This document shows positions 4,019-16,804 of a stretch of 64,000 bases of DNA, one piece after another. The DNA is taken from contig JAFDDG010000006.1 of assembly GCA_019310965.1 (NCBI GenBank), positions 1 to 64,000 of the forward strand. The letters run 5' to 3'. A program made the translations under genes and the position numbers. The notes under the pieces were generated by a model. The model was not told the DNA's origin. It did not search any database and saw only the letters and a program-made list of their open reading frames with translations. The DNA comes from Deltaproteobacteria bacterium (GTDB taxonomy: Bacteria; Myxococcota_A; UBA9160; SMWR01). Position 1 is the stretch's first letter. The number at the start of each line of letters is the position of its first letter.

Positions 4019-4179
4019 CGTCTCGGCCTCCTTCGGGATTGGGATCGGCGCGACACGGATCGGCCTTGAGGCGCCCCGCCGGAGCCTGGCTGCCCCCCCG
4101 CCTTCGGCGTGGCAGCCGTGTCTCGAACGCAGTACAACGCGATGTTGCGAATCTTGACACGCACACCCGGGAGGATGAG

Positions 4180-4947
4180 ATGGACGCGAATGGATCCGTG
4201 GCCCTGACGGTGGGGGGCGCGTCGGGAATGGCCAATGCGACGGCCAGGCTGTTGGCGAGCAAGGGCGCCCAGGTTGCGATTCTCGATCTCGAGAGCAGCC
4301 GCGGCGAGCAGGCCGCCGCAGAGATCGGTGGGGGGACGATCTTCTGCCCCGTCGACGTCCGGGACTCGGCCTCGATCGCCGCGGCGCTCGATGCAGCCTG
4401 CGAGGCGTTCGGGGCCGTCCACATCGTGGTGAACACGGCCGGCGGCGGCATGGCCAGGCGCACGCTCTCGAAGCAGGGGCCGCACCCGTTGGAAGATTTC
4501 CGCAACACGGTCGAGCTCAACCTGATCGGAACGTTCGATCTGCTGCGCCAAGCGGCGGAGCGCATGGCCGCCAACGAGCCGAACGCAGACGGCGAGCGCG
4601 GCGTCGTGATCAACACGGCGTCGATCGCCGCCTTCGAGGGGCAGATCGGCCAGGTGGCCTACGCATCGGCCAAGGCCGGCATCGTCGGCATGACCTTCAC
4701 GGCGGCCCGCGAGCTCGGGGGCCTCGGCATCCGTGTGCTCGCCATCGCGCCGAGTCTCTTCGAGACGGGCATCACCCAGGGCATCCCCGATGAGTTTGCC
4801 GCCGCGCTCACGAAGGATGCCGCCTTCCCCAAGCGCATGGGGCGTCCGGAAGAGTATGCGAAGCTCGCGCTCGCCATCGTCGAGAACCCGATGCTGAACG
4901 CATCGACGCTGCGGCTCGACGGCGGGCAGCGTTTCGCGCCACGCTGA
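4180..4947 (+). CDS. SDR oxidoreductase, 3-hydroxyacyl-CoA dehydrogenase type 2 (HSD10)-like
   Basis: Short-chain dehydrogenase of 255 residues that most resembles 17beta-HSD10/3-hydroxyacyl-CoA dehydrogenase type 2. Shared features are INTASIAAFEGQIGQ, the active-site Tyr and Lys in YASAK, and RVLAIAPSLF. It would oxidise a hydroxyacyl-CoA or similar alcohol with NAD. The start was set at ATG 4180 because GGGAGG precedes it at a normal distance; the frame is open upstream to 4039 but that stretch does not look like SDR. The dinucleotide-binding loop is unusual: the normal TGGASGLG reads TVGGASGMA, so the first residues are swapped and the last Gly is replaced. Confidence 0.88.
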   Translation: MDANGSVALTVGGASGMANATARLLASKGAQVAILDLESSRGEQAAAEIGGGTIFCPVDVRDSASIAAALDAACEAFGAVHIVVNTAGGGMARRTLSKQGPHPLEDFRNTVELNLIGTFDLLRQAAERMAANEPNADGERGVVINTASIAAFEGQIGQVAYASAKAGIVGMTFTAARELGGLGIRVLAIAPSLFETGITQGIPDEFAAALTKDAAFPKRMGRPEEYAKLALAIVENPMLNASTLRLDGGQRFAPR

Positions 4948-5012
4948 GGGCGTTCGAGAGGGCGAAGCAGGGCCTCGAGGGCCCCTGTAGCAGGGAGCGC
5001 GAACCCGGCTCG

Positions 5013-5723
5013 CTAGGCCGACCAGCGATCGTCGAAGAGTGCCGAGGCGTAGTAGTCCGGGAGGTTGGCTCGCGCCTCGCTGCCGACCGCCAGGCCGCGC
5101 TCGACCGCCGGTCTCCTCCGTACCGCGTCGTACCAGCGCGCCAGGTTCGGCAACCGGGAGAGGTCATCGACGCCGTGGAGCAGGAGCGGCACCGTGGACC
5201 CGATCGCCGCGATGTCGACGATCGAGTAGTCGCCACAGACGAACTCGCGATCTGCGAGACGCTCGTCGAGCTTGGCATGGGCCTCGACGCTGGCGCTCGT
5301 GAAGAACTCGTAGGTCGCATTGCCATAGTCGGTCTTGTCGAAGAGACGGTATTTCGGGTCCGCATGGAACATCGCTCCGGGCCAACCCAACGCGGGCCCA
5401 TAGCTGTTCACGACCCAGAAGAACCAGGTCAAGAACTCGGCGCGCTCGCGCGGATCGCGTGGCATCAGCCTCCCGGTCTTCTCGGCGAGGTAGAAGAGGA
5501 TCGCGCCGGTCTCGAAGACACGGATGGCGTCGCCGCCGTCGACCGGGTCGTGGTCGATGATCACGGGGACCTTCTGCATCGGGTTGCGAGCGCTGTGCTC
5601 CGGCGTGAACTGCTCTCCGGCGCCGATGTTCACGGAGGTGAAGCGATAGTCGAGGTCGAGCTCCTCCAGCGCGATCGAGACCCGCCAGCTCATGGTCGTG
5701 ATGTAGCCGAAATAGTCGATCAT
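5013..5723 (-). CDS. Glutathione S-transferase, Ure2p-like (paralog 1)
   Basis: Cytosolic GST of 236 residues: a thioredoxin-like N-terminal domain (about 1-85) with the cis-Pro KVPVI and the glutathione-binding ESGAIL-type segment (here FETGAILFYLAEK), then an all-helical C-terminal domain with the N-capping-box region GDYSIVDIA. The region where the catalytic residue sits reads TTMSWR, so Ser rather than Cys follows the first beta strand. The start at ATG 5723 is supported by GGAGGTGA just upstream; the frame extends to 5780 without a ribosome binding site. It is divergent from another GST at 5920 and probably shares a control region with it. Substrate unknown. Confidence 0.9.
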   Translation of the reverse strand: MIDYFGYITTMSWRVSIALEELDLDYRFTSVNIGAGEQFTPEHSARNPMQKVPVIIDHDPVDGGDAIRVFETGAILFYLAEKTGRLMPRDPRERAEFLTWFFWVVNSYGPALGWPGAMFHADPKYRLFDKTDYGNATYEFFTSASVEAHAKLDERLADREFVCGDYSIVDIAAIGSTVPLLLHGVDDLSRLPNLARWYDAVRRRPAVERGLAVGSEARANLPDYYASALFDDRWSA

Positions 5724-5773
5724 CTTCACCTCCGCGGCGTCAGCGTGGCCTCGGACCCGCCCGGACCGAGATA

Positions 5774-5822
5774 TTCTCAACCACGAGAACGAAAAATGTG
5801 AGAGATTTCTCCCAGATAGAAT
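5774..5822. promoter_or_regulatory. Candidate control region between divergent GST genes
   Basis: This A+T-richer stretch lies between divergent genes starting at 5723 (minus) and 5920 (plus). It holds two small palindromes, TTCTC-N6-GAGAA (5774-5789) and GAGA-TT-TCTC (5802-5811). A TAGAAT hexamer at 5817-5822 could be a -10 element for the plus gene, but no convincing -35 is visible. The repeated TTCTC/GAGAA half-sites may be an operator. This is inference only. Confidence 0.3.
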
Positions 5823-5919
5823 GATCTGGATGGGTGCTCTGGATGGAGTCTGTCCTTTGGGGCTCTCTTCTGTCTGGCCGGCGCCCCCCCCGTGTTCGAC
5901 ATTTCTCGAGGAGACGAGA

Positions 5920-6615
5920 GTGATTCAGCTTTACACCGACATGAGTCCTCATTCATGGAAGGCGCCCATTGCGTTGGAGGAGATGGGCCTGCCCTATGCG
6001 GTCCATCACATCAGCCTGGGAGCGGGGGCACAGAAATCACCGGAGTATCTGAAGATTTCGCCATGGGGTGTCGTGCCGACGATTGTCGACCCGGAGATGG
6101 ACGATCTCGTCGTCATCGAGTCGGGCGCCATCCTGATCTACCTGGCGGAGAAGAGCGGAAAGCTCTTGCCGACCTCCGTGCCGGAGCGCAGCAAGGTGCT
6201 GCAGTGGCTGATGTTCCACACGGCGAACATGGGCCCGGCGCAGAGTGTCATGGATCTACTGACGTACGAAATAGAGAAGCCGATCCCGGAGGCGGTGGAG
6301 TTCTATCGACAGCGCGCCCTGGGGATGTACGAGGTGTTCGACAGGCAGCTGGCCGAGAACGAGTACGTGGCGGGTGATTTCAGCATTGCCGACATCGCCC
6401 ACTGGGTCTACGTGGGCACCCACGAGTGGGTGGGTCTGAACATCGACGCGTTCCCGAACGTCCAGCGCTGGCTCTCCACGATGGCCAAGCGCCCCGGCTG
6501 TTGCAGGGGCTTGGACGTGCCAGCTCCGGTCACGCCGGATCTGGTTCCCGAGGGCGAGGAGTTTCAGAAGTACCGCCGCTATCTGGAGATCGTGGCGTCC
6601 ATGAAGACCCGCTAG
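5920..6615 (+). CDS. Glutathione S-transferase, Ure2p-like (paralog 2)
   Basis: GST of 231 residues with a thioredoxin-fold N-terminal half (GVVPTIVDP with cis-Pro, then ESGAILIYLAEKSG) and a helical C-terminal half (GDFSIADIAHW). The catalytic-loop motif is MSPHSWK, again Ser at the position where two other paralogs here have Cys. The chosen start is GTG 5920, preceded by GAGGAGACGAG; the open frame upstream to 5821 encodes no GST sequence. It heads a plus-strand run of four genes (GST, PPOX-fold protein, racemase-fold enzyme, NmrA-like reductase) with 34-77-nt gaps, probably one operon. Substrate unknown. Confidence 0.9.
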   Translation: MIQLYTDMSPHSWKAPIALEEMGLPYAVHHISLGAGAQKSPEYLKISPWGVVPTIVDPEMDDLVVIESGAILIYLAEKSGKLLPTSVPERSKVLQWLMFHTANMGPAQSVMDLLTYEIEKPIPEAVEFYRQRALGMYEVFDRQLAENEYVAGDFSIADIAHWVYVGTHEWVGLNIDAFPNVQRWLSTMAKRPGCCRGLDVPAPVTPDLVPEGEEFQKYRRYLEIVASMKTR

Positions 6616-7226: not shown

Positions 7227-7985
7227 ATGATTCGCATGTCCCAGGACCGGAACTCTTCGATGGCTGAGGGCGGTGAGCCCGCGATCGGCATCTTGCTGCT
7301 CGACTACGGTGGTCCGATCATCCGGGGCAGTACGGGCGACGTGACCACGCCGCGCAAGCTGGGAGATATCGGCAACGCGGCCAGCTACCGCTATCCGGTG
7401 TTCTTCCACACGGTGAAGGGCCTGACGTTCGACCGGGTGCTGGCCGGCGGGGCGGAGTGCGAGAGGTTGGTGGTCGAGGCTGCGAAAGAGCTCGAGACCT
7501 GCGGTGTGCGCGGAATCAGCAGCGACTGCGGGTTCCTCATCAGCTTTCAGCAGGCCGTGAGCCAGGCACTGCGCATCCCGGTGCTCCTGTCCAGCATGCT
7601 GCAGCTCCCGATGGTCGCTGCGGCGTCCGGTTCGCGGCGCCCCGTGGCGCTCATCACTGCCACCGACGCAGCGTTCGGCAGAAGCATGCTGGAGCTGGCC
7701 GGCGTGCCGGCCGACACTCCGATCATCGTCAGGGGCCTGCAGCGTGAACCACACTTCAAGGAGGCGATTCTCGAAGGAAGCGCCGACACGCTCGACTGGG
7801 ATGTGATCGGGCAGGAGGTGGTGAAGGTCGTGCAGGAGACGATCGAAGAGCAGCCGGAGACCGGCGCAATCGTATTCGAGTGCTCGCTACTGCCACCCTA
7901 TAGTGGGTTGGTGCGGGAGACGACGGGGCTACCCGTGTTCGATTTCATTACGCTGATCGACTTCCTCTACGCCGGCACACAGTAG
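7227..7985 (+). CDS. Aspartate/glutamate racemase-fold family protein
   Basis: A 252-residue protein of the Asp/Glu/hydantoin racemase superfamily. The paired catalytic cysteines expected for a two-base mechanism appear to be present: Cys101 in SSDCGFL and Cys219 in FECSLLPPY, each at the end of one pseudo-symmetric half. The glycine-rich start GILLLDYGGPIIRGSTGDV is typical of the less-studied subfamily annotated only as Asp/Glu racemase family. Related folds include maleate isomerase and arylmalonate decarboxylase, so racemase activity is not certain. Start codons at 7227, 7236 and 7260 are all possible. It lies in the GST-led operon. Confidence 0.8.
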   Translation: MIRMSQDRNSSMAEGGEPAIGILLLDYGGPIIRGSTGDVTTPRKLGDIGNAASYRYPVFFHTVKGLTFDRVLAGGAECERLVVEAAKELETCGVRGISSDCGFLISFQQAVSQALRIPVLLSSMLQLPMVAAASGSRRPVALITATDAAFGRSMLELAGVPADTPIIVRGLQREPHFKEAILEGSADTLDWDVIGQEVVKVVQETIEEQPETGAIVFECSLLPPYSGLVRETTGLPVFDFITLIDFLYAGTQ

Positions 7986-8916: not shown

Positions 8917-8923
8917 GCCTATT

Positions 8924-10141
8924 TCACTCCCACGAGGAGCGCGCGACCGGCACGATCATGAAGTTGGCGATCATCGCGAGGGCCGGGTCCTGGCTCTTCA
9001 CGCAGTGACGCTTGATCTCCATCAAGAGCTGGCCGGCGTGGGTCTCCTGCCAGAACCAATCGTCCAGTGCGGCCGGTGTGGGGGATGCGTCGCCGGGCTG
9101 TGCCGTGACCGCCTCGAAGTAGAGGGTTTTGAGATCCTCGGCTGCGGCCTTGAGTGCGAGCTCCAGGGGCAGCTGTGTGCACGGGTTCGTCGGTGCGGTG
9201 TCTTCGAGGAAGGCCAGCAGGAACTCCGCGAGATCCGAGATGCCGAGTCCACTCGCGCCGACCGTGGTGTGACCTCGTTGCTCGCACGCCCGGTCGTACC
9301 ACGGCTGCAGGCCACGAAGCTCGCGCCGAAAGACCGTCGCCGGCCCGTCGTCGGCCTCTGGCTCGCGCTGGAGGGGGATTGGACAGGCCCACGGCGCCTC
9401 CGCGCCGTCGTCCTTGCCCCCGGCAGCCTCGTCGGGAAAATCCTCGAGCACGGGACCCTCGGGAGCTTCCAGCAGGGCCAGGGCGGCGCGCAGCACCCGG
9501 AGCTGAAGTGCGGGGTCGTTGGCGGCGCCCAGCGGCCGGCCCAGCGGGAAGGGCACCCAGAGTGCCCGCGGTGGACGCATCACCTCGGTGTGCTCCCGCA
9601 CCAGGCTGATCTGCGTCGTCGGAATTCCGTCGCTCTCCAGGTAGTGCCCGAGCCCGCCCACGGCGCGCGTGCAGTACGGTCAGACAGGGACGAGCAGCAC
9701 GGCGTCGACGCGGTCCTTCCGGAGCAGGAGCGCCAGCTCGTGGGCCGCCGGCTCGGCGAGGTCGGGCGTCGAGGCGATCATGAATGAGTAGTGGAAGTCC
9801 GCGACGCTTCCGATTTCGCCGGCACGCTCCAGCTCGCGGAGGCGATCGAGAGGGAAGACGATGTTCCAGTCCTGGGCGAAGCCGGTTCGGTCGAAGTTCG
9901 GCGAGACGTGGGTCGACACCAGATCGCCCGCCTGGGCGTCCCCGGGGAGGACTCGATAGTCCGCCGAATCGAGCACGAAGGGACGGTCGCTGCGCGTGTG
10001 CAGCCCGGCCGTCGTGACGATCGCGACCCGCCGTTGCCGAAGCGGCGGTCCCGTCACCCAGGGCTGCGTGTCGAAGCCGTGGCACTCCGCTTCGAGCAGA
10101 TGATCCCTCAGCTCTCCTGCGAGATCGCTCAGACGAACCAT
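8924..10141 (-). CDS. GrdB-family selenoprotein (glycine/sarcosine/betaine reductase B-like), TGA at 9680-9682 read as Sec
   Basis: One gene interrupted by an in-frame TGA. Codons 1-153 (10141 down to 9683) and 155-405 (9679 down to 8924) lie in the same frame and together match the GrdB-like selenoprotein B family. The first part carries GLHTRSDRPF, STHVSPNFDRTGF and VADFHYSFM; the second carries GGLGHYLE, TTQISLVREHTE and RPPRALWVPF. The TGA falls exactly at the redox motif VPV-U-PYCTRAVGG, giving Sec154 and Cys157 in UxxC. The ATG at 10141 has AAGGAGAGG upstream. Readthrough gives 405 residues. A stem-loop can be drawn just after the TGA. It lies downstream of the phytanoyl-CoA dioxygenase gene on the same strand. 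The reaction is unknown; aerobic relatives are not proven glycine reductases. Confidence 0.88.
9641..9682 (-). promoter_or_regulatory. Candidate bacterial SECIS stem-loop after the Sec codon
   Basis: Reading the minus strand from TGA 9682-9680, GUACUGC (9677-9671) can pair with GCACUAC (9647-9641) with one C-C mismatch. CGCC (9665-9662) pairs with GGCG (9658-9655), closing a GUG apical loop. The loop G lies 18 nt after the UGA, a distance compatible with SelB-dependent SECIS elements, which lie within the coding region directly downstream of the codon. Drawn by hand; no energy was computed. Confidence 0.5.
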
Positions 10142-10245
10142 CGCTCTGCCTCTCCTTCAGGGTCACACCCGTGCGTCAGTCCGCGACGGCGACCGAGGAC
10201 TCGGCGAGGCGCGGAGGAACGGCCCGCCCAGAGGACTTCGGGGCA

Positions 10246-11412
10246 CTATCGCAGATCGCTCGCGTCGACGTCGTGCATGAGCTGGTCGTAGTGCTCCTGG
10301 CCCTGCTCGAAGCGACGTCCCGGGCGACCGTACTCGAAGACCACGCTCATCCGAAACGGGCCTTCTTCTGCGACGGGCGGCGTACCCGCGTGCATGCCGC
10401 AGCCGTAATGCAGTGAGAAATCGCCCGGGTTGGTCTCGATCCCCACGCCCAGCGTGTCGCTTTGATCCACCACGGAGCAGCCCGCGGTATTCCAGGAGCC
10501 GGGCAGGAGGCGCAGCTCACCCGTGTCGAGATTCGCCGGACGCAGGTAGAGAATTCCGTTCATCAGAGGACACATGAACTTGTGGCCCCCCAGCCCGCAG
10601 TCCCGATGCCAGGGCTGATCCGCCTTCCCGTCGAAGACCATGCGCGAATGCTTGTACAAGACCGCGATCGCATCGGTGTCGGTCGGCTCGAGCTTGAAAT
10701 CCGACAGCGCGACGATCCGCAGCAGCCGCGGGTCGGCCGGCAATCTGCGCATCCGTGGATCGATGCCCGCGTTGAGGACGCGCGTGAGCATCGTTCGCCC
10801 GTCTTCGTGCTGCGACCACCAGGAGGTTTCGTCGCCCTCGCGGGCCGCCTCGCGCACGATTTCGGCGGCGTCGAGGAGACCGTCGATTTCGTCGGGTGGC
10901 AAGACCTCGCGCACCAGGATGTAGCCGGTGACGCGGAGGAAGTCCGCCATGCGCTCGGGATCGTCATCGAGATGGAAGGAGAGAGTCGGATCGATCTCGC
11001 GCCCGTCGCGCCCGATGAGCGGCGCGTCTGCGTCGTAGGGCGGCAGCTCTTCGTAGAGCACTCGGAGCGCGGGCTCCCAATGCATGAAGTCGCTGACTTC
11101 GCCGGAGACGGCCCGGGCGCGCTGCGAGAGGACGAGCCCGGGAGGGGTCTCGGTCGAATCGCGGAGCCCCTGCCAGCACGCCTCGTCGAGTTCGACGACG
11201 GTCGCTGCGGCGCCGTCGCCCTTCACGATCGCGACCGTCGACGCCTCGGGCACATAGGAGTAGGCGCGACCATCGGGCAGGCGGATCGCGAGTGGCGACA
11301 ATCCCCGGGCCCCTTTCGCCGCAAGCTCGCCCCACTCTCCGGCGAGGCGATCGGGAAGCGAGCGTTCATGATAGGCGTCGAAGGACTCGTTTGTCTTTTC
11401 GCTTGTCTGCAT
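10246..11412 (-). CDS. Phytanoyl-CoA dioxygenase (PhyH) family Fe(II)/2-oxoglutarate oxygenase
   Basis: A 388-residue protein with a jelly-roll oxygenase domain in its C-terminal two thirds. The iron triad is visible: HxD in PWHRDCG near residue 267 and the distal His in GMHAG near residue 339, followed by Arg in FRMSVVFEYGR as the 2-oxoglutarate anchor. The N-terminal ~120 residues are not recognised. GGAGA precedes the ATG at 11412. It is divergent from a TetR regulator at 11656 and 104 nt upstream of the selenoprotein gene on the same strand, suggesting a regulated two-gene unit. The hydroxylated substrate is unknown. Confidence 0.88.
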   Translation of the reverse strand: MQTSEKTNESFDAYHERSLPDRLAGEWGELAAKGARGLSPLAIRLPDGRAYSYVPEASTVAIVKGDGAAATVVELDEACWQGLRDSTETPPGLVLSQRARAVSGEVSDFMHWEPALRVLYEELPPYDADAPLIGRDGREIDPTLSFHLDDDPERMADFLRVTGYILVREVLPPDEIDGLLDAAEIVREAAREGDETSWWSQHEDGRTMLTRVLNAGIDPRMRRLPADPRLLRIVALSDFKLEPTDTDAIAVLYKHSRMVFDGKADQPWHRDCGLGGHKFMCPLMNGILYLRPANLDTGELRLLPGSWNTAGCSVVDQSDTLGVGIETNPGDFSLHYGCGMHAGTPPVAEEGPFRMSVVFEYGRPGRRFEQGQEHYDQLMHDVDASDLR

Positions 11413-11655: not shown

Positions 11656-12288
11656 ATGATGGAGTCAGCCAGCCGCTCTGTGCAGACTGTGGCGCGATCG
11701 AGCGCCTCGCCCGGAACGGTCCGACCGGGTGGCCGGACCGAGCGCACGCGCCGGGCGGTGGCCGCCGCGGCCTTGGCGCTGCTTCGCCGCGGCGAGACCG
11801 ACCTGAGTCCCGCCACCGTGGCCGTGGAGGCGGGCGTGGGCCTGAGCACCGTCTACCGGCGCTGGCCCACCCGCGTGGACCTGCTCCGCGAGGCCTTCAC
11901 GTTGCATACCCGCACGCTTCGGGTGCCCGATACGGGCGACTTCGAGTCCGACATCCACGCCCTCGCCCGTCGCCTGGCTCGTTTCTTCTCGGGTCCGACC
12001 GAGGTCGCGATGTCCGTCGCCATGGCGGCGCACACCGATCCAGAGTTCAACGCCTGGCAGATCGAGTACTGGGAGCAGCTGGCGGGCGAATTGGCTCGAC
12101 CCGTCGAGAACGCCATCGCACGAGGAGAGCTCGCGGACGATGTCGACGCGGCTCTCCTGATCGAGATGCTGATCGGACCGATGGTGACCCGCACCGCCAT
12201 CGTGAAGCAGCGCCTGGGACGAAAATTCGCGAGCGACCTTGCAGACCTCGTCATACGGAGCGCGGCGAAAGCAAGCGCGGCCGAATAG
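11656..12288 (+). CDS. TetR/AcrR-family transcriptional regulator
   Basis: A 210-residue regulator. The N-terminal helix-turn-helix domain (about residues 25-75) shows the family pattern RTRRAVAAAALALL, then VAVEAGVGLSTVYRRWP with the recognition helix, then LLREAF. The C-terminal ligand/dimer domain is all-helical and includes the TetR_C-type pattern GELADDVDAALLIEMLIGPM. Start at tandem ATGs 11656/11659. It is divergent from the phytanoyl-CoA dioxygenase gene across a 243-bp gap, so it probably represses that gene and the selenoprotein gene behind it. The inducer is unknown. Confidence 0.92.
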   Translation: MMESASRSVQTVARSSASPGTVRPGGRTERTRRAVAAAALALLRRGETDLSPATVAVEAGVGLSTVYRRWPTRVDLLREAFTLHTRTLRVPDTGDFESDIHALARRLARFFSGPTEVAMSVAMAAHTDPEFNAWQIEYWEQLAGELARPVENAIARGELADDVDAALLIEMLIGPMVTRTAIVKQRLGRKFASDLADLVIRSAAKASAAE

Positions 12289-12447: not shown

Positions 12448-13155
12448 CTACTGGTCGAGGAACGGTATGCGAAACTCGTCCACTATCGTGGCGAGCATTT
12501 CCTCGTCCAGCGCCAATCCCCGTTGCACCGCTGGCCGTGCTCGGAGACTCTGGTACCAACGCTGAGTATTGGGAAACTCGGACAGGTCCTCGATGACCTC
12601 ATAGACCCTTCGGGGGATGACGTGGCCGAGCACTGCGATGTCGGCGATGGAGTACTCGCCACAGAGATAATCCTTTCCCGAGAGCTGCTTTTCCAATTGC
12701 TTGTAGAGATCACGGATCTTCCCGGCCAGAAAATCGGCCGCCATCGTATTGGGCTCAGCCCCTTTCTTGGTGATCGAGCCGGGAGAACCGGGCTCTGCAA
12801 TGAAAGCCAGTCGGGTTGAGTGCGGCTCCCCCACATTGCTGGCGTCCCAAAACAGCCACTGAATGACTTCGAAGCGATTGCGTCCTTGCCGAGGAAGCAG
12901 CTGGCCGGTCTTCTCGGCGAGATAGAGCAATATCGCGTCGGACTCGAAAACCCGTTGCGGCTCGCCACGATCGAGTGGGGCATGGTCGATGATCAGAGGA
13001 ATCTTGTTGTTCGGGCTGAGCCTGTCGAATTCCGCCTCGAACTGGTCACCGTCGCCGATGCTGATCCGCGTATAGCGATAGTCCAACCCCAGCTCCTCCA
13101 GGGCAATACTGGTCTTCCAGCAATTGGGCGTCGGCAGGCCGAAGAAATCGATCAT
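12448..13155 (-). CDS. Glutathione S-transferase, Ure2p-like (paralog 3)
   Basis: GST of 235 residues. The N-terminal thioredoxin-like domain begins MIDFFGLPTPNCWK, so Asn and Cys occupy the catalytic-loop positions, as in paralog 4 but unlike paralogs 1 and 2. NKIPLIIDH supplies the cis-Pro and ESDAILLYLAEKTGQLLP the glutathione-contact segment. The C-terminal helical domain contains GEYSIADIAVLG. Start at ATG 13155 (GAGGAGAGAG just upstream); the open frame continues to 13200 without GST sequence. It follows the GNAT gene on the same strand after 56 nt. Substrate unknown. Confidence 0.9.
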   Translation of the reverse strand: MIDFFGLPTPNCWKTSIALEELGLDYRYTRISIGDGDQFEAEFDRLSPNNKIPLIIDHAPLDRGEPQRVFESDAILLYLAEKTGQLLPRQGRNRFEVIQWLFWDASNVGEPHSTRLAFIAEPGSPGSITKKGAEPNTMAADFLAGKIRDLYKQLEKQLSGKDYLCGEYSIADIAVLGHVIPRRVYEVIEDLSEFPNTQRWYQSLRARPAVQRGLALDEEMLATIVDEFRIPFLDQ

Positions 13156-13211
13156 CACTCTCTCCTCGCTGTGTTCCTGGATCGATCGACAATTGTCCAC
13201 AAGGTACTGAC

Positions 13212-13931
13212 TCAGCCTTCGAATCTCGCGGCAACCACCTCGACGGGTCGCCGCACCTCGAAGCCCAGTGACTGATAGAGCCGCAGCGCGCTCTCGTTTT
13301 CCGCTGCAACGTGAAGGAAGGCCTCGTCTCCCCGCGAACGGATCTCGCGTGCGAGCCCGAGGGTAAGTGCCGTGGCCAGCCCCTGACGCCGGGCGCTCGG
13401 ATGAGTGCAGACCGCCGAGATCTCCGCATGACCGGGAACGCGCATGCGTTCTCCCGCCATCGCGACCAGCTGGCCCTCACGACGCACACCGACGTAGGTT
13501 CCCAGCTCGTGGGTCCGAGGCAGGAAAGGGCCGGGCACGGTCAGCCGGACGAGCTCGATCATCTCCGGCACGTCCGCCGCCGACAGCTCCTCGAGTGCGG
13601 GGGCGGAAGCGTTCGCAAGATTGCCGGCCACGAGCTGCACGCCTGTGCCGCGATACACCTCCAGCCAACCAGTTGGGGCCGCCGGCACCACATCACGGGA
13701 GAGGATGGCGACGCCCCCGGCTCCGACCAGCTCCGCCAGAGCGGCCCAGTCCGCCTCTTCGAGCTGGTCGGCGGCGCTGAAGATGTTGACCTCTGGGTGG
13801 TAGCGAAGCGCTCGACCTCCTCGGGCCGACACCGCGAGCGCGCGCTGAGTGCCGCGCAGCGCGTGCCATACCGGGTTGCCAAGCACTGCGTCGCGTTCCG
13901 GCTCGACGGGACGGCGGGTAGCGGGGATCAT
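13212..13931 (-). CDS. GNAT-family N-acetyltransferase
   Basis: A 239-residue protein whose C-terminal half is a GNAT domain. The acetyl-CoA pyrophosphate-binding loop ARRQGLATAL follows AEISAVCTHPS, and the last motif AENESALRLYQSLGFEVR is the classical end of GNAT folds. The N-terminal ~110 residues are less conserved and resemble the first half of FR47-like two-domain acetyltransferases. No clear ribosome binding site is seen before ATG 13931, so the start is tentative. It lies between two GST genes on the minus strand. The acyl acceptor is unknown. Confidence 0.88.
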   Translation of the reverse strand: MIPATRRPVEPERDAVLGNPVWHALRGTQRALAVSARGGRALRYHPEVNIFSAADQLEEADWAALAELVGAGGVAILSRDVVPAAPTGWLEVYRGTGVQLVAGNLANASAPALEELSAADVPEMIELVRLTVPGPFLPRTHELGTYVGVRREGQLVAMAGERMRVPGHAEISAVCTHPSARRQGLATALTLGLAREIRSRGDEAFLHVAAENESALRLYQSLGFEVRRPVEVVAARFEG

Positions 13932-14010
13932 TGAATGAAGCCCTCGATCTACAGCTGGCGCGTGGCAAGGACGCAGCGAATTCGTCCCACACTGATGTCG
14001 GCGGGTCCGA

Positions 14011-14739
14011 TCAAGAGGCGGGTGCCTCTTCGTCGCGCAGCTGCCTCCGGAACCCCGCAGGCAGACCAGCCAGCACTTCCGGGTCGATCCCGAAGCCGCG
14101 TTGGACGGCGGGCCGCGCTTTCAAGGCTTCGTACCAACGACGCAGATTCGGGTACGCCCCCAGGTCTCCGACCGTGTAGAGGCGGTGCGGGGGAATGTGT
14201 GGCCAGACGGACATGTCGACGATCGAGTAGTCGTTGCAGATGTACTCGCGGCCCTCGAGACGCGCCTCGAGCAGAGCGTAGAGGTCGCGGCTCTTCGCTC
14301 CGAAATAATCCGCCGCCTCCTTGCCCGTCGGTCGCGCGACCTCCTGTCCCTCGCCGGTTCCCACATTAGGCGTGGATCCGCCGTTGAACGCGTGACACAT
14401 TCCCAGGTAGGGGCCGAAGCCGCTGAGGTCCCACATCAGCCACTGGAGCACGTCGAAACGCTCGCGTGTGTCCTCGGGAAGGAAGCGTCCGGCCTTCTCG
14501 GCCAGGTAGAGGAGAATGGCACCGGACTCGAAGACCTGAATCGGCTCACCGCCGCCGGCAGGCCCGCGGTCTCTGATCGCGGGGATCTTCGCGATCGGAT
14601 TGATCGCGCGATAGGCCGGCTCGAATTGCTCGCCCGCTGCAATGTCCACTCGCCGATACTCGTAGTCGAGGCCCATCTCCTCCAGCGCGATGGAGACCCG
14701 CCAGCAGTTGGGCGTCGGCATGGCGTAGAAGTCGATCAT
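14011..14739 (-). CDS. Glutathione S-transferase, Ure2p-like (paralog 4)
   Basis: GST of 242 residues starting MIDFYAMPTPNCWR, so it shares the TPNC catalytic-loop sequence with paralog 3. AKIPAIRD holds the cis-Pro, ESGAILLYLAEKAGRFLP the glutathione-binding part, and NDYSIVDMSVWPHI the C-terminal domain. An insertion of about 15 residues (around GGSTPNVGTGEGQEVARP) separates helices of the C-terminal domain. GGAGAGAAG lies ahead of ATG 14739. It follows an SDR gene after 53 nt on the same strand, so SDR-GST-GNAT-GST (15566 to 12448) may be one transcript. Confidence 0.9.
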   Translation of the reverse strand: MIDFYAMPTPNCWRVSIALEEMGLDYEYRRVDIAAGEQFEPAYRAINPIAKIPAIRDRGPAGGGEPIQVFESGAILLYLAEKAGRFLPEDTRERFDVLQWLMWDLSGFGPYLGMCHAFNGGSTPNVGTGEGQEVARPTGKEAADYFGAKSRDLYALLEARLEGREYICNDYSIVDMSVWPHIPPHRLYTVGDLGAYPNLRRWYEALKARPAVQRGFGIDPEVLAGLPAGFRRQLRDEEAPAS

Positions 14740-14792
14740 CAGGTCTTCTCTCCTCGGGCATCCGGACCGGGGTCGTACGGGTTCGGCGCATT

Positions 14793-15566
14793 TCAGGGCA
14801 TGTAGTCGCCACCGGTGACGTGCAGGCTGGATCCATTCATGCCGGAGGCGGCGTCGCTGCAGAGAAAGACGATTGCCTCCGCGACCTCTTCGGGCTGGAT
14901 CAGTCGACCGGGAACCAACATGGCCCCATGCGCCGCCCGGTCCTCCTCCGAAACGACCGCCTTGATGCCATCCGATTCGGTGTAGCCCGGTGCGACGACG
15001 TTCACGCGGACGCCGTGGCGCGCTCCCTCGAGGGCCAGGGAGCGGCTCATGCCCACGATCCCTCCCTTGGCCGCACTGTAGGCGGAGGCATTGGGTTGCA
15101 CGGCACGGTAGGCCGAGCCCGACGAGACGTTCACGATCGCACCGCTGCCCTGCTCGAACATTTTCCGCAATGCTTCCTGGCAGCAGAAGAAGACCCCGCG
15201 CAGATCGAGCGAGTGGATCGCGTCCCAATGCTCCTCGGTCACCTCGAGTACGGGGGCGACCGGGTAGATCGCGGCCACGTTCGCCAGTGCGTCGAAGCGG
15301 CCGTAGCTGTCCCAGATGCGCGCGAAGACCGTTCGGATCTCCGACACGCGCGCGAGATCCGCAACGAAGGGCTCGGCCCGCACGCCCGTCGCTTTGAGCT
15401 CGCCGGCGACTTGCTCGAGCGCCCCCGCGTCGACGTCGATGAGTGCGAGGTCTGCCCTCGATTGCGCAAAGGCAGTCGCCGTCGCCCGTCCGATGCCTCG
15501 GGCCGCCCCCGTTACGATCGCGACGCGCCCCGTCAGGTCGCTCTTGTCGAGATGCTGGCCGGACAT
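14793..15566 (-). CDS. SDR-family oxidoreductase
   Basis: Classical short-chain dehydrogenase, 257 residues. The NAD(P) motif TGAARGIG is near residue 20, and an acidic residue after the second strand (LIDVD) suggests NAD preference. The usual NNAG is replaced by NVAA. The catalytic Ser lies in NVSSGSAYR and Tyr/Lys in YSAAK. The C-terminus ends LHVTGGDYMP. Start at ATG 15566, preceded by AAAGGGGT. It is divergent from the phospholipase-D-like gene (15740). The pairing with a GST directly downstream recalls, only by analogy, dehydrogenase-plus-GST pathways such as bacterial aryl-ether cleavage. Confidence 0.88.
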   Translation of the reverse strand: MSGQHLDKSDLTGRVAIVTGAARGIGRATATAFAQSRADLALIDVDAGALEQVAGELKATGVRAEPFVADLARVSEIRTVFARIWDSYGRFDALANVAAIYPVAPVLEVTEEHWDAIHSLDLRGVFFCCQEALRKMFEQGSGAIVNVSSGSAYRAVQPNASAYSAAKGGIVGMSRSLALEGARHGVRVNVVAPGYTESDGIKAVVSEEDRAAHGAMLVPGRLIQPEEVAEAIVFLCSDAASGMNGSSLHVTGGDYMP

Positions 15567-15739
15567 GCGACCCCTTTCGGCCCACAGTACACGCAGCCCA
15601 CTGGAGAAGCACGCCGGGCGATGGGCTCGGCGGGGCTTGCTACCGTGCAACTCGAGTCTGGCGAGGGGCCCGATCCGTGAAGCTCTCCGAACGATGCGCG
15701 AGATCCGGTTGATCCAGAACCGCCCAGCGGACTGCTGAC

Positions 15740-16804
15740 GTGGCTTTTTGCCGGGTGCATTTCGGTGGGCCGGGTCGCCCGGACGGCAGCTTGCGTGACT
15801 TGTTGGCCGAGCGTGTTGCCCGGGTGCCCGCGGGCGGCTCCATCGATTGGGTGACCTACTACTTCCGCGATCGCCGACTCGCCGGAGAGCTCGTGGCGGC
15901 ACGGCGTCGGGGCGTCGCCGTGCGCGTCACTCTGGAAGGCCGGCCGCGGTCGAGAGGCGCCAACGCTGCGGTGATCGCCCTGTTGGAAGAGGCGCTCGGT
16001 GATGGACTCCGCGTGGTCGCTGCCGCGACCGATGGGCTTCCGATGGGCAAGGCCCTGCGGCCCCGCCTGCACGAGAAGCTCTACTGCTTCTCCCATCCGC
16101 AGCCCACGGCCTGGGTCGGCTCCTTCAACCCGTCCGGCGACGAGCCCGAGCTGGCGCCCGAGGTGATCCGGCAGATCGGCGACCACGACCACGCCTTCAA
16201 TCTGCTGGTGGAGCTCTGCGACGAGCCGCTGGTCGCGGCGCTGGCCGCTCACGCCCGGCAGCTCCACAGCGCCCGCCACGGTCCCTTCGATCGTTTCGGT
16301 CCCGCTGCCAACCGAAGCCTCGCGGTCGGAGACGCCGGCGTGCACTTCTGGCCGCGGATCGCTCCGGACCCGGTGAATCGGCTGCTATTCGGTCTCCCGA
16401 GCGGCAGTCGGGTGCGCCTGGCCGCCTCCCACCTGAGCGGGCCCACGGCGCGGCGCGTGTTGACGGGCATCGCCCGGAGCGGTGTGACACTCGAGATTCT
16501 GGTCGACTCGACGCATCGCCGCGTCCCTGCGGCCATGCTGCGCCAGCTCTCGGAAGTGGGGGGCGTGATCCGGCGCATCGGCCAGGGCGAGAGCTGGATC
16601 CCAATGCACGACAAGTTCGCGCTGGTGGAGACACCGACCCGGCGCAGCGCGGTCTTCGGGAGCTTCAACTGGAGCAGGCCCTCGCGAAGCTTCAACCGCG
16701 AGATCGGTGTCGTCAGCGGGGACGCTCCACTCTTCGCAGCCCTCGCGGAGCGCTGGGAGGAGTTGGGCCAGCACGCCTCTCCGGCAGCGCCCGGCTCGGA
16801 TTGA
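15740..16804 (+). CDS. Phospholipase D-like (HKD) phosphodiesterase/transferase
   Basis: A 354-residue protein with two HKD half-sites typical of the PLD superfamily: LHEKLYCF...GSFNPSG near residue 109 and MHDKFALV...GSFNWS near residue 288. Both keep the His and Lys, and the GSFN element follows each. It begins with GTG 15740 and has no obvious signal peptide. Downstream lies a CDP-alcohol phosphotransferase, so a role in phospholipid synthesis or turnover is plausible (compare PLD-type cardiolipin synthases), but cardiolipin synthases usually carry N-terminal membrane helices that are absent here. Confidence 0.87.
   Translation: MAFCRVHFGGPGRPDGSLRDLLAERVARVPAGGSIDWVTYYFRDRRLAGELVAARRRGVAVRVTLEGRPRSRGANAAVIALLEEALGDGLRVVAAATDGLPMGKALRPRLHEKLYCFSHPQPTAWVGSFNPSGDEPELAPEVIRQIGDHDHAFNLLVELCDEPLVAALAAHARQLHSARHGPFDRFGPAANRSLAVGDAGVHFWPRIAPDPVNRLLFGLPSGSRVRLAASHLSGPTARRVLTGIARSGVTLEILVDSTHRRVPAAMLRQLSEVGGVIRRIGQGESWIPMHDKFALVETPTRRSAVFGSFNWSRPSRSFNREIGVVSGDAPLFAALAERWEELGQHASPAAPGSD

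Follow-up and report, generated by a model that had tools for sequence, protein, structure and literature searches.

The minus-strand gene at positions 8924..10141 of the window, by which the whole analysed stretch of 64,000 nt of a Deltaproteobacteria genome is meant, is almost certainly an intact selenoprotein gene, in which the in-frame TGA at 9680-9682 would be read as selenocysteine (Sec154). On sequence grounds, the product is a stand-alone two-domain relative of the reductase subunits PrdB and GrdB, set apart from true PrdB. The gene, which encodes 405 amino acids plus stop, was recognized by the profiles PF07355 and TIGR04483 and by its full-length homologs. With the TGA translated as Sec, the minus strand yields a 405-residue protein from 10141 to 8927, followed by a stop codon at 8924-8926. 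The first-pass annotation had proposed two same-frame segments joined by this TGA, and their coordinates were reproduced exactly. The motif VPVUPYCT occupies residues 151-158, so that Sec154 and Cys157 form the UxxC motif that had been predicted. GC content by codon position is 0.75/0.44/0.84 before and 0.74/0.50/0.85 after the TGA, which is a like coding signature in both halves. Homologs align end to end with the window protein, at 46-52% identity over approximately 400 residues and across the TGA, which bears out the claim of unbroken conservation on either side. An overlapping 415-amino acid ORF in another frame (8919-10166, minus strand) has no Pfam match and was dismissed as a high-GC artefact.

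Homologs were sought in six GTDB contigs and 60 related genomes, and subsequently in 331 genomes of the phylum. They recur in the genomes searched, almost always with a single TGA, while none were found in the viral contigs and phages searched. At the column in question, TGA is present in 93 of 93 distinct readable sites, including Proteobacteria contigs, and Cys in none of the 93; the motif is UPxC in 85 and UPLD in 8 of them. The latter motif is found in a subgroup of short homologs (L149, L152, L159, L168, L171, L174, L176, and L177), where the TGA is kept and UPLD replaces UPxC, which leaves Sec without a resolving Cys three residues on. Outside this set of sites, Sec occupies the column in PrdB of Peptoclostridium, Ligilactobacillus, and Terrisporobacter, and Cys in PrdB of Enterococcus gilvus and in one Roseomonas homolog. 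Thus, in the alignment that had been suggested as a check, every homolog carries Sec or Cys. A frame interrupted by a stop codon could also be taken for the result of a disabling mutation, that is, for a pseudogene or an assembly error. The probability of this is next to nil; it is refuted by the conservation of the TGA at all 93 homologous sites, those on Proteobacteria contigs among them, and both the covarying stem-loop and the complete Sec machinery of the genome, which are described below, speak against it.

Downstream of the TGA, a SECIS-like stem-loop is located at 9651..9669 (minus strand), with the stem formed by 9669-9663 and 9657-9651 and the loop CGTGG. The stem comprises up to 7 bp (nucleotides 14-20 and 26-32, counted from the T of the TGA) and encloses a 5-nt loop, which in homologs mostly reads CGTGA or CGTGG; the stem-loop is common to the subfamilies. 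Among 27 distinct rows, 86.8% of the cells of the stem pair and 41 cells carry a double change, one in each arm; covariation scores 0.581, versus 0.215 for shuffled alignments and at most 0.133 when the stem is slid. The window copy contains one G-G mismatch. Sequence conservation at this site is partly due to coding, the paired double changes going beyond what coding alone would produce. A search of Rfam in the vicinity of the TGA matched no family; the covarying stem-loop behaves as a bacterial SECIS would and is, hence, termed SECIS-like. Of the first-pass description, the presence of a stem-loop stands and is strengthened by covariation, while its start 2 nt after the TGA has to be corrected to 10 intervening nucleotides.

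The genome of the window, a draft of 4.66 Mb in 158 contigs with a completeness of approximately 90%, contains all four components of the Sec machinery for which a search had been recommended, namely tRNA-Sec (70.5 bits, UCA anticodon), selA (515 bits), selB (276 bits), and selD (256 bits). The same genome also has a gene for the formate dehydrogenase alpha subunit, FdhA (L001, G000:C107:10822-12093), in which an in-frame TGA falls at the expected Sec position, SCAATUHAP.

Assignment to the GrdB family, as originally proposed, holds insofar as PF07355 (Pfam GRDB) matches residues 35-151 with 34 bits versus a cut-off of 22; by profile, the protein is nearer to PrdB than to GrdB, yet it falls outside the true PrdB clade. 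The best NCBIfam profile is that of PrdB, TIGR04483 (7e-27), with 94.4 bits versus an equivalog cut-off of 300, while the Grd profiles TIGR01917, TIGR01918, NF040794, and NF040795 score 45-58 bits, all below their cut-offs (65-800). In a tree of 86 N-terminal domains, true PrdB forms a separate clade (100/100) on a long stem, with the window protein outside; the long proteins form a single clade of 24 rows (support 99/97), which divides into A, containing the window protein and also Proteobacteria MAGs, and B. Three GrdB/PrdB-like members are found in the window's genome, namely the window gene, a long B form on contig C152 (L074, G000:C152:25443-26531), and a short form on contig C111 (L076, G000:C111:33213-33887). 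Both further genes are selenoprotein genes, and the one on C152 lies 85 nt after a gene for a luciferase-like monooxygenase.

The PF07355 score above cut-off and the PrdB match would be in line with a true subunit of D-proline reductase or glycine/betaine reductase. This is very improbable, considering the shortfall against the TIGR04483 cut-off and the separate, long-stemmed PrdB clade. Furthermore, the partner family PF09338 (PrdA/GrdE) is absent from the genome, a draft from which at approximately 90% completeness a partner gene could have been missed, while the prdA plasmid control was matched in the same search; the claim of a setting unlike that of the anaerobic amino-acid reductases is thereby upheld. 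Of the four Firmicutes records inspected, three have prdA near prdB, which is not so at the window locus. From the separate PrdB clade and the lack of a PrdA/GrdE partner it follows that the window protein would be neither a proline nor a glycine reductase, but the stand-alone relative introduced above.

The N-terminal α/β domain (approximately residues 29-230; 9452..10057, minus strand) is GrdB/PrdB-like according to Pfam and NCBIfam profiles and the AlphaFold2 model. It is followed by a linker (residues 241-259; 9365..9421, minus strand), which is modelled as disordered with low pLDDT and includes Cys253, a residue invariant in 19 of 19 long rows. The C-terminal domain (approximately residues 260-405; 8927..9364, minus strand) is predicted to be all-helical and has no Pfam or PDB fold match. 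The model of the whole protein has a mean pLDDT of 83, and that of the isolated C-terminal part has one of 87. Neither the whole protein nor the C-terminal domain matched any PDB fold at E < 0.001, so that a suspected Asp/Glu-racemase-like fold is unsupported; neither a thioredoxin-like nor another known redox fold was retrieved in this search. The only PDB match by sequence, to a designed repeat protein, was judged to be due to chance.

Approximately 105 nt upstream of the selenoprotein start, a co-directional gene (10246..11412, minus strand) encodes a PhyH-type Fe(II)/2OG oxygenase (PF05721, 27.8 bits; HxD at residue 269), and a TetR-family regulator (PF16859, 81 bits) is encoded divergently at 11662..12288 (plus strand). 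At six related loci, a TauD oxygenase gene is found 63-69 nt downstream of the selenoprotein gene, and an AraC regulator is divergent from the latter in five of these six loci as well as in L070. In L108, a different TauD gene lies 67 nt downstream, and in L109 a PhyH gene lies approximately 34 nt downstream and a second one 1 kb upstream. Within approximately 13 kb, the contig of L109 (G298:C165) carries three PhyH genes, half of the PhyH set of that genome, in addition to two selenoprotein genes of the GrdB/PrdB-like type. Altogether, 9 of the 24 long loci have a co-directional adjacent Fe(II)/2OG oxygenase (PhyH or TauD), and the remaining 15 lack it. BLASTP gave no alignment between the two PhyH proteins compared, nor between the two TauD types, which suggests more than one origin of the pairing. 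Of 29 sites in eight genomes, 7 have a PhyH or TauD gene less than 2 kb away, where 0.83 would be expected; this enrichment is overstated, since five of the eight genomes were picked after the pairings had been seen.

Around the short forms, neighbouring genes vary widely. Enoyl-CoA hydratase leads with 6 of 101 neighbours, and the leading families include no oxygenase except P450 (3 of 101). A cluster of GST-like genes with SDR dehydrogenases surrounds the selenoprotein gene at 4168-6612 and 12451-15900 of the window; the GST, SDR, NmrA, and TetR neighbours of the window are not conserved around homologs. A 252-amino acid protein encoded at 7227-7985 (plus strand) has no Pfam match and by eye resembles an Asp/Glu-racemase relative. 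SelO, a protein AMPylase, adjoins two very distant GrdB/PrdB-like genes, one with Sec and one with Cys (L064:3342-4769 and L106:6776-8248, both minus strand). A seemingly conserved neighbour cluster (c0) turned out to consist mostly of opposite-strand ORFs of the gene itself, with AraC genes merged in, and the neighbour ORFs beside L071, L074, and L111 (n = 3) were left out as apparent wrong-strand reads.

Catalysis by glycine and proline reductases involves a pyruvoyl partner, which activates a carbon for attack by the Sec of the B protein. Our best guess for the window protein, by contrast, is a stand-alone selenol reductase of an inducible aerobic catabolic pathway, which would work without a partner of the PrdA/GrdE type. 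SelB and tRNA-Sec, both encoded in the genome, would decode the UGA at 9680-9682 as Sec154 with the help of the downstream SECIS-like stem-loop. Given the lack of a pyruvoyl partner, the Sec154 selenolate would directly attack the electrophilic centre of a small substrate, either an activated C-X carbon or an S/O electrophile; a precedent for C-X attack in this superfamily is the Sec attack on a C-F bond proposed for FarB (PMC10838667). The intermediate would then be resolved by Cys157 in the form of a selenenylsulfide, and the invariant Cys253 of the mobile linker may relay electrons from a donor of the thioredoxin/GSH type. The operon would be catabolic and would lie next to an Fe(II)/2OG oxygenase gene, PhyH here and TauD elsewhere; the oxygenase beside it implies that the metabolism is aerobic, and the divergently encoded TetR and AraC regulators suggest induction.

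The UxxC motif is typical of redox proteins, and the protein could instead be a general thiol/selenol oxidoreductase or an antioxidant peroxidase, to which the adjoining oxygenases and GSTs would be incidental. The GST genes around the window copy, the SelO genes beside the homologs in L064 and L106, and the majority of long loci devoid of an oxygenase agree with this; the fold search result, the related UxxD subgroup devoid of a resolving Cys, and the divergent regulators together with the oxygenase pairing, which point to substrate induction, argue against it, and it is regarded as possible but rather unlikely. Alternatively, the selenoprotein might serve reductive dehalogenation or detoxification, its substrate being no nutrient but a product, toxic or reactive, of the adjoining oxygenase or of a xenobiotic. 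The GST cluster of the window would fit, as would the cleavage of a C-F bond by Sec that has been proposed for FarB (PMC10838667), but GSTs are not conserved as neighbours, and this role appears quite improbable. The best explanation as a whole, i.e., a functional UGA-decoded selenoprotein with partner-free Sec/Cys chemistry in an inducible aerobic catabolic operon, is put forward tentatively, its chance of being correct in all its parts being somewhat short of even. A new selenoenzyme class of aerobic bacteria is possible but rather unlikely; its members would be two-domain, partner-free GrdB/PrdB relatives equipped with a selenol and two further thiols, one resolving and the other mobile, and would cooperate with Fe(II)/2OG oxygenases in the inducible breakdown of some compound.

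Reports of PrdB-like UxxC selenoproteins from surface oceans date from 2005 and 2008 (PMC1088965, PMC2398784), ranking them third in abundance among the known selenoprotein families of the Sargasso Sea set and counting 235 of them in GOS; this kind of selenoprotein is, thus, itself already known. The accessible part of a 2026 review (PMC13188914) gives glycine reductase and D-proline reductase for the family and mentions no aerobic role. A literature search, mostly outside subscription journals, turned up neither the long form nor the oxygenase pairing. The long two-domain subfamily, with its helical C-terminal domain, invariant Cys253, and Fe(II)/2OG oxygenase pairing, looks new. The finding matters, as PrdB-like selenoproteins are among the most abundant of the surface ocean (PMC2398784). 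They are named after an anaerobic proline reductase, which the window protein apparently is not. The subfamilies are now separated, with true PrdB excluded for the window protein, and the gene pairing makes the function testable. This could partly explain why aerobic bacteria retain the costly Sec machinery.

Among known systems, D-proline reductase PrdB (TIGR04483) has an N-terminal domain homologous to that of the window protein, with Sec or Cys at the corresponding column and Cys three residues on. It differs in having approximately 241 amino acids, the motif TAGUGTCHR, and usually prdA nearby, whereas the window protein has 405 amino acids and the motif VPVUPYCTR and lacks prdA. With GrdB/GrdF/GrdH (PF07355), the likeness extends to the C-terminal half of GrdB, which matches window residues approximately 78-226 including the UxxC site, while the N-terminal half of GrdB, a subunit of glycine/sarcosine/betaine reductase, is unlike that of the window protein. 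GrdB has approximately 435 amino acids and requires GrdE, GrdA, and GrdC. The marine-metagenome PrdB-like UxxC selenoproteins belong to the same Pfam family and have Sec in UxxC and many Sec members; they come from surface-ocean samples and are named "proline reductase PrdB," and the portions of the two papers at hand (PMC1088965, PMC2398784) neither show proline reductase activity nor describe subfamilies, a C-terminal domain, or gene context. Fluoroacetate reductase FarB (PMC10838667) is similar at the superfamily level, being a GrdB relative for which Sec is proposed as the nucleophile on the C-F bond, but it originates from an anaerobe and has a partner, FarE.
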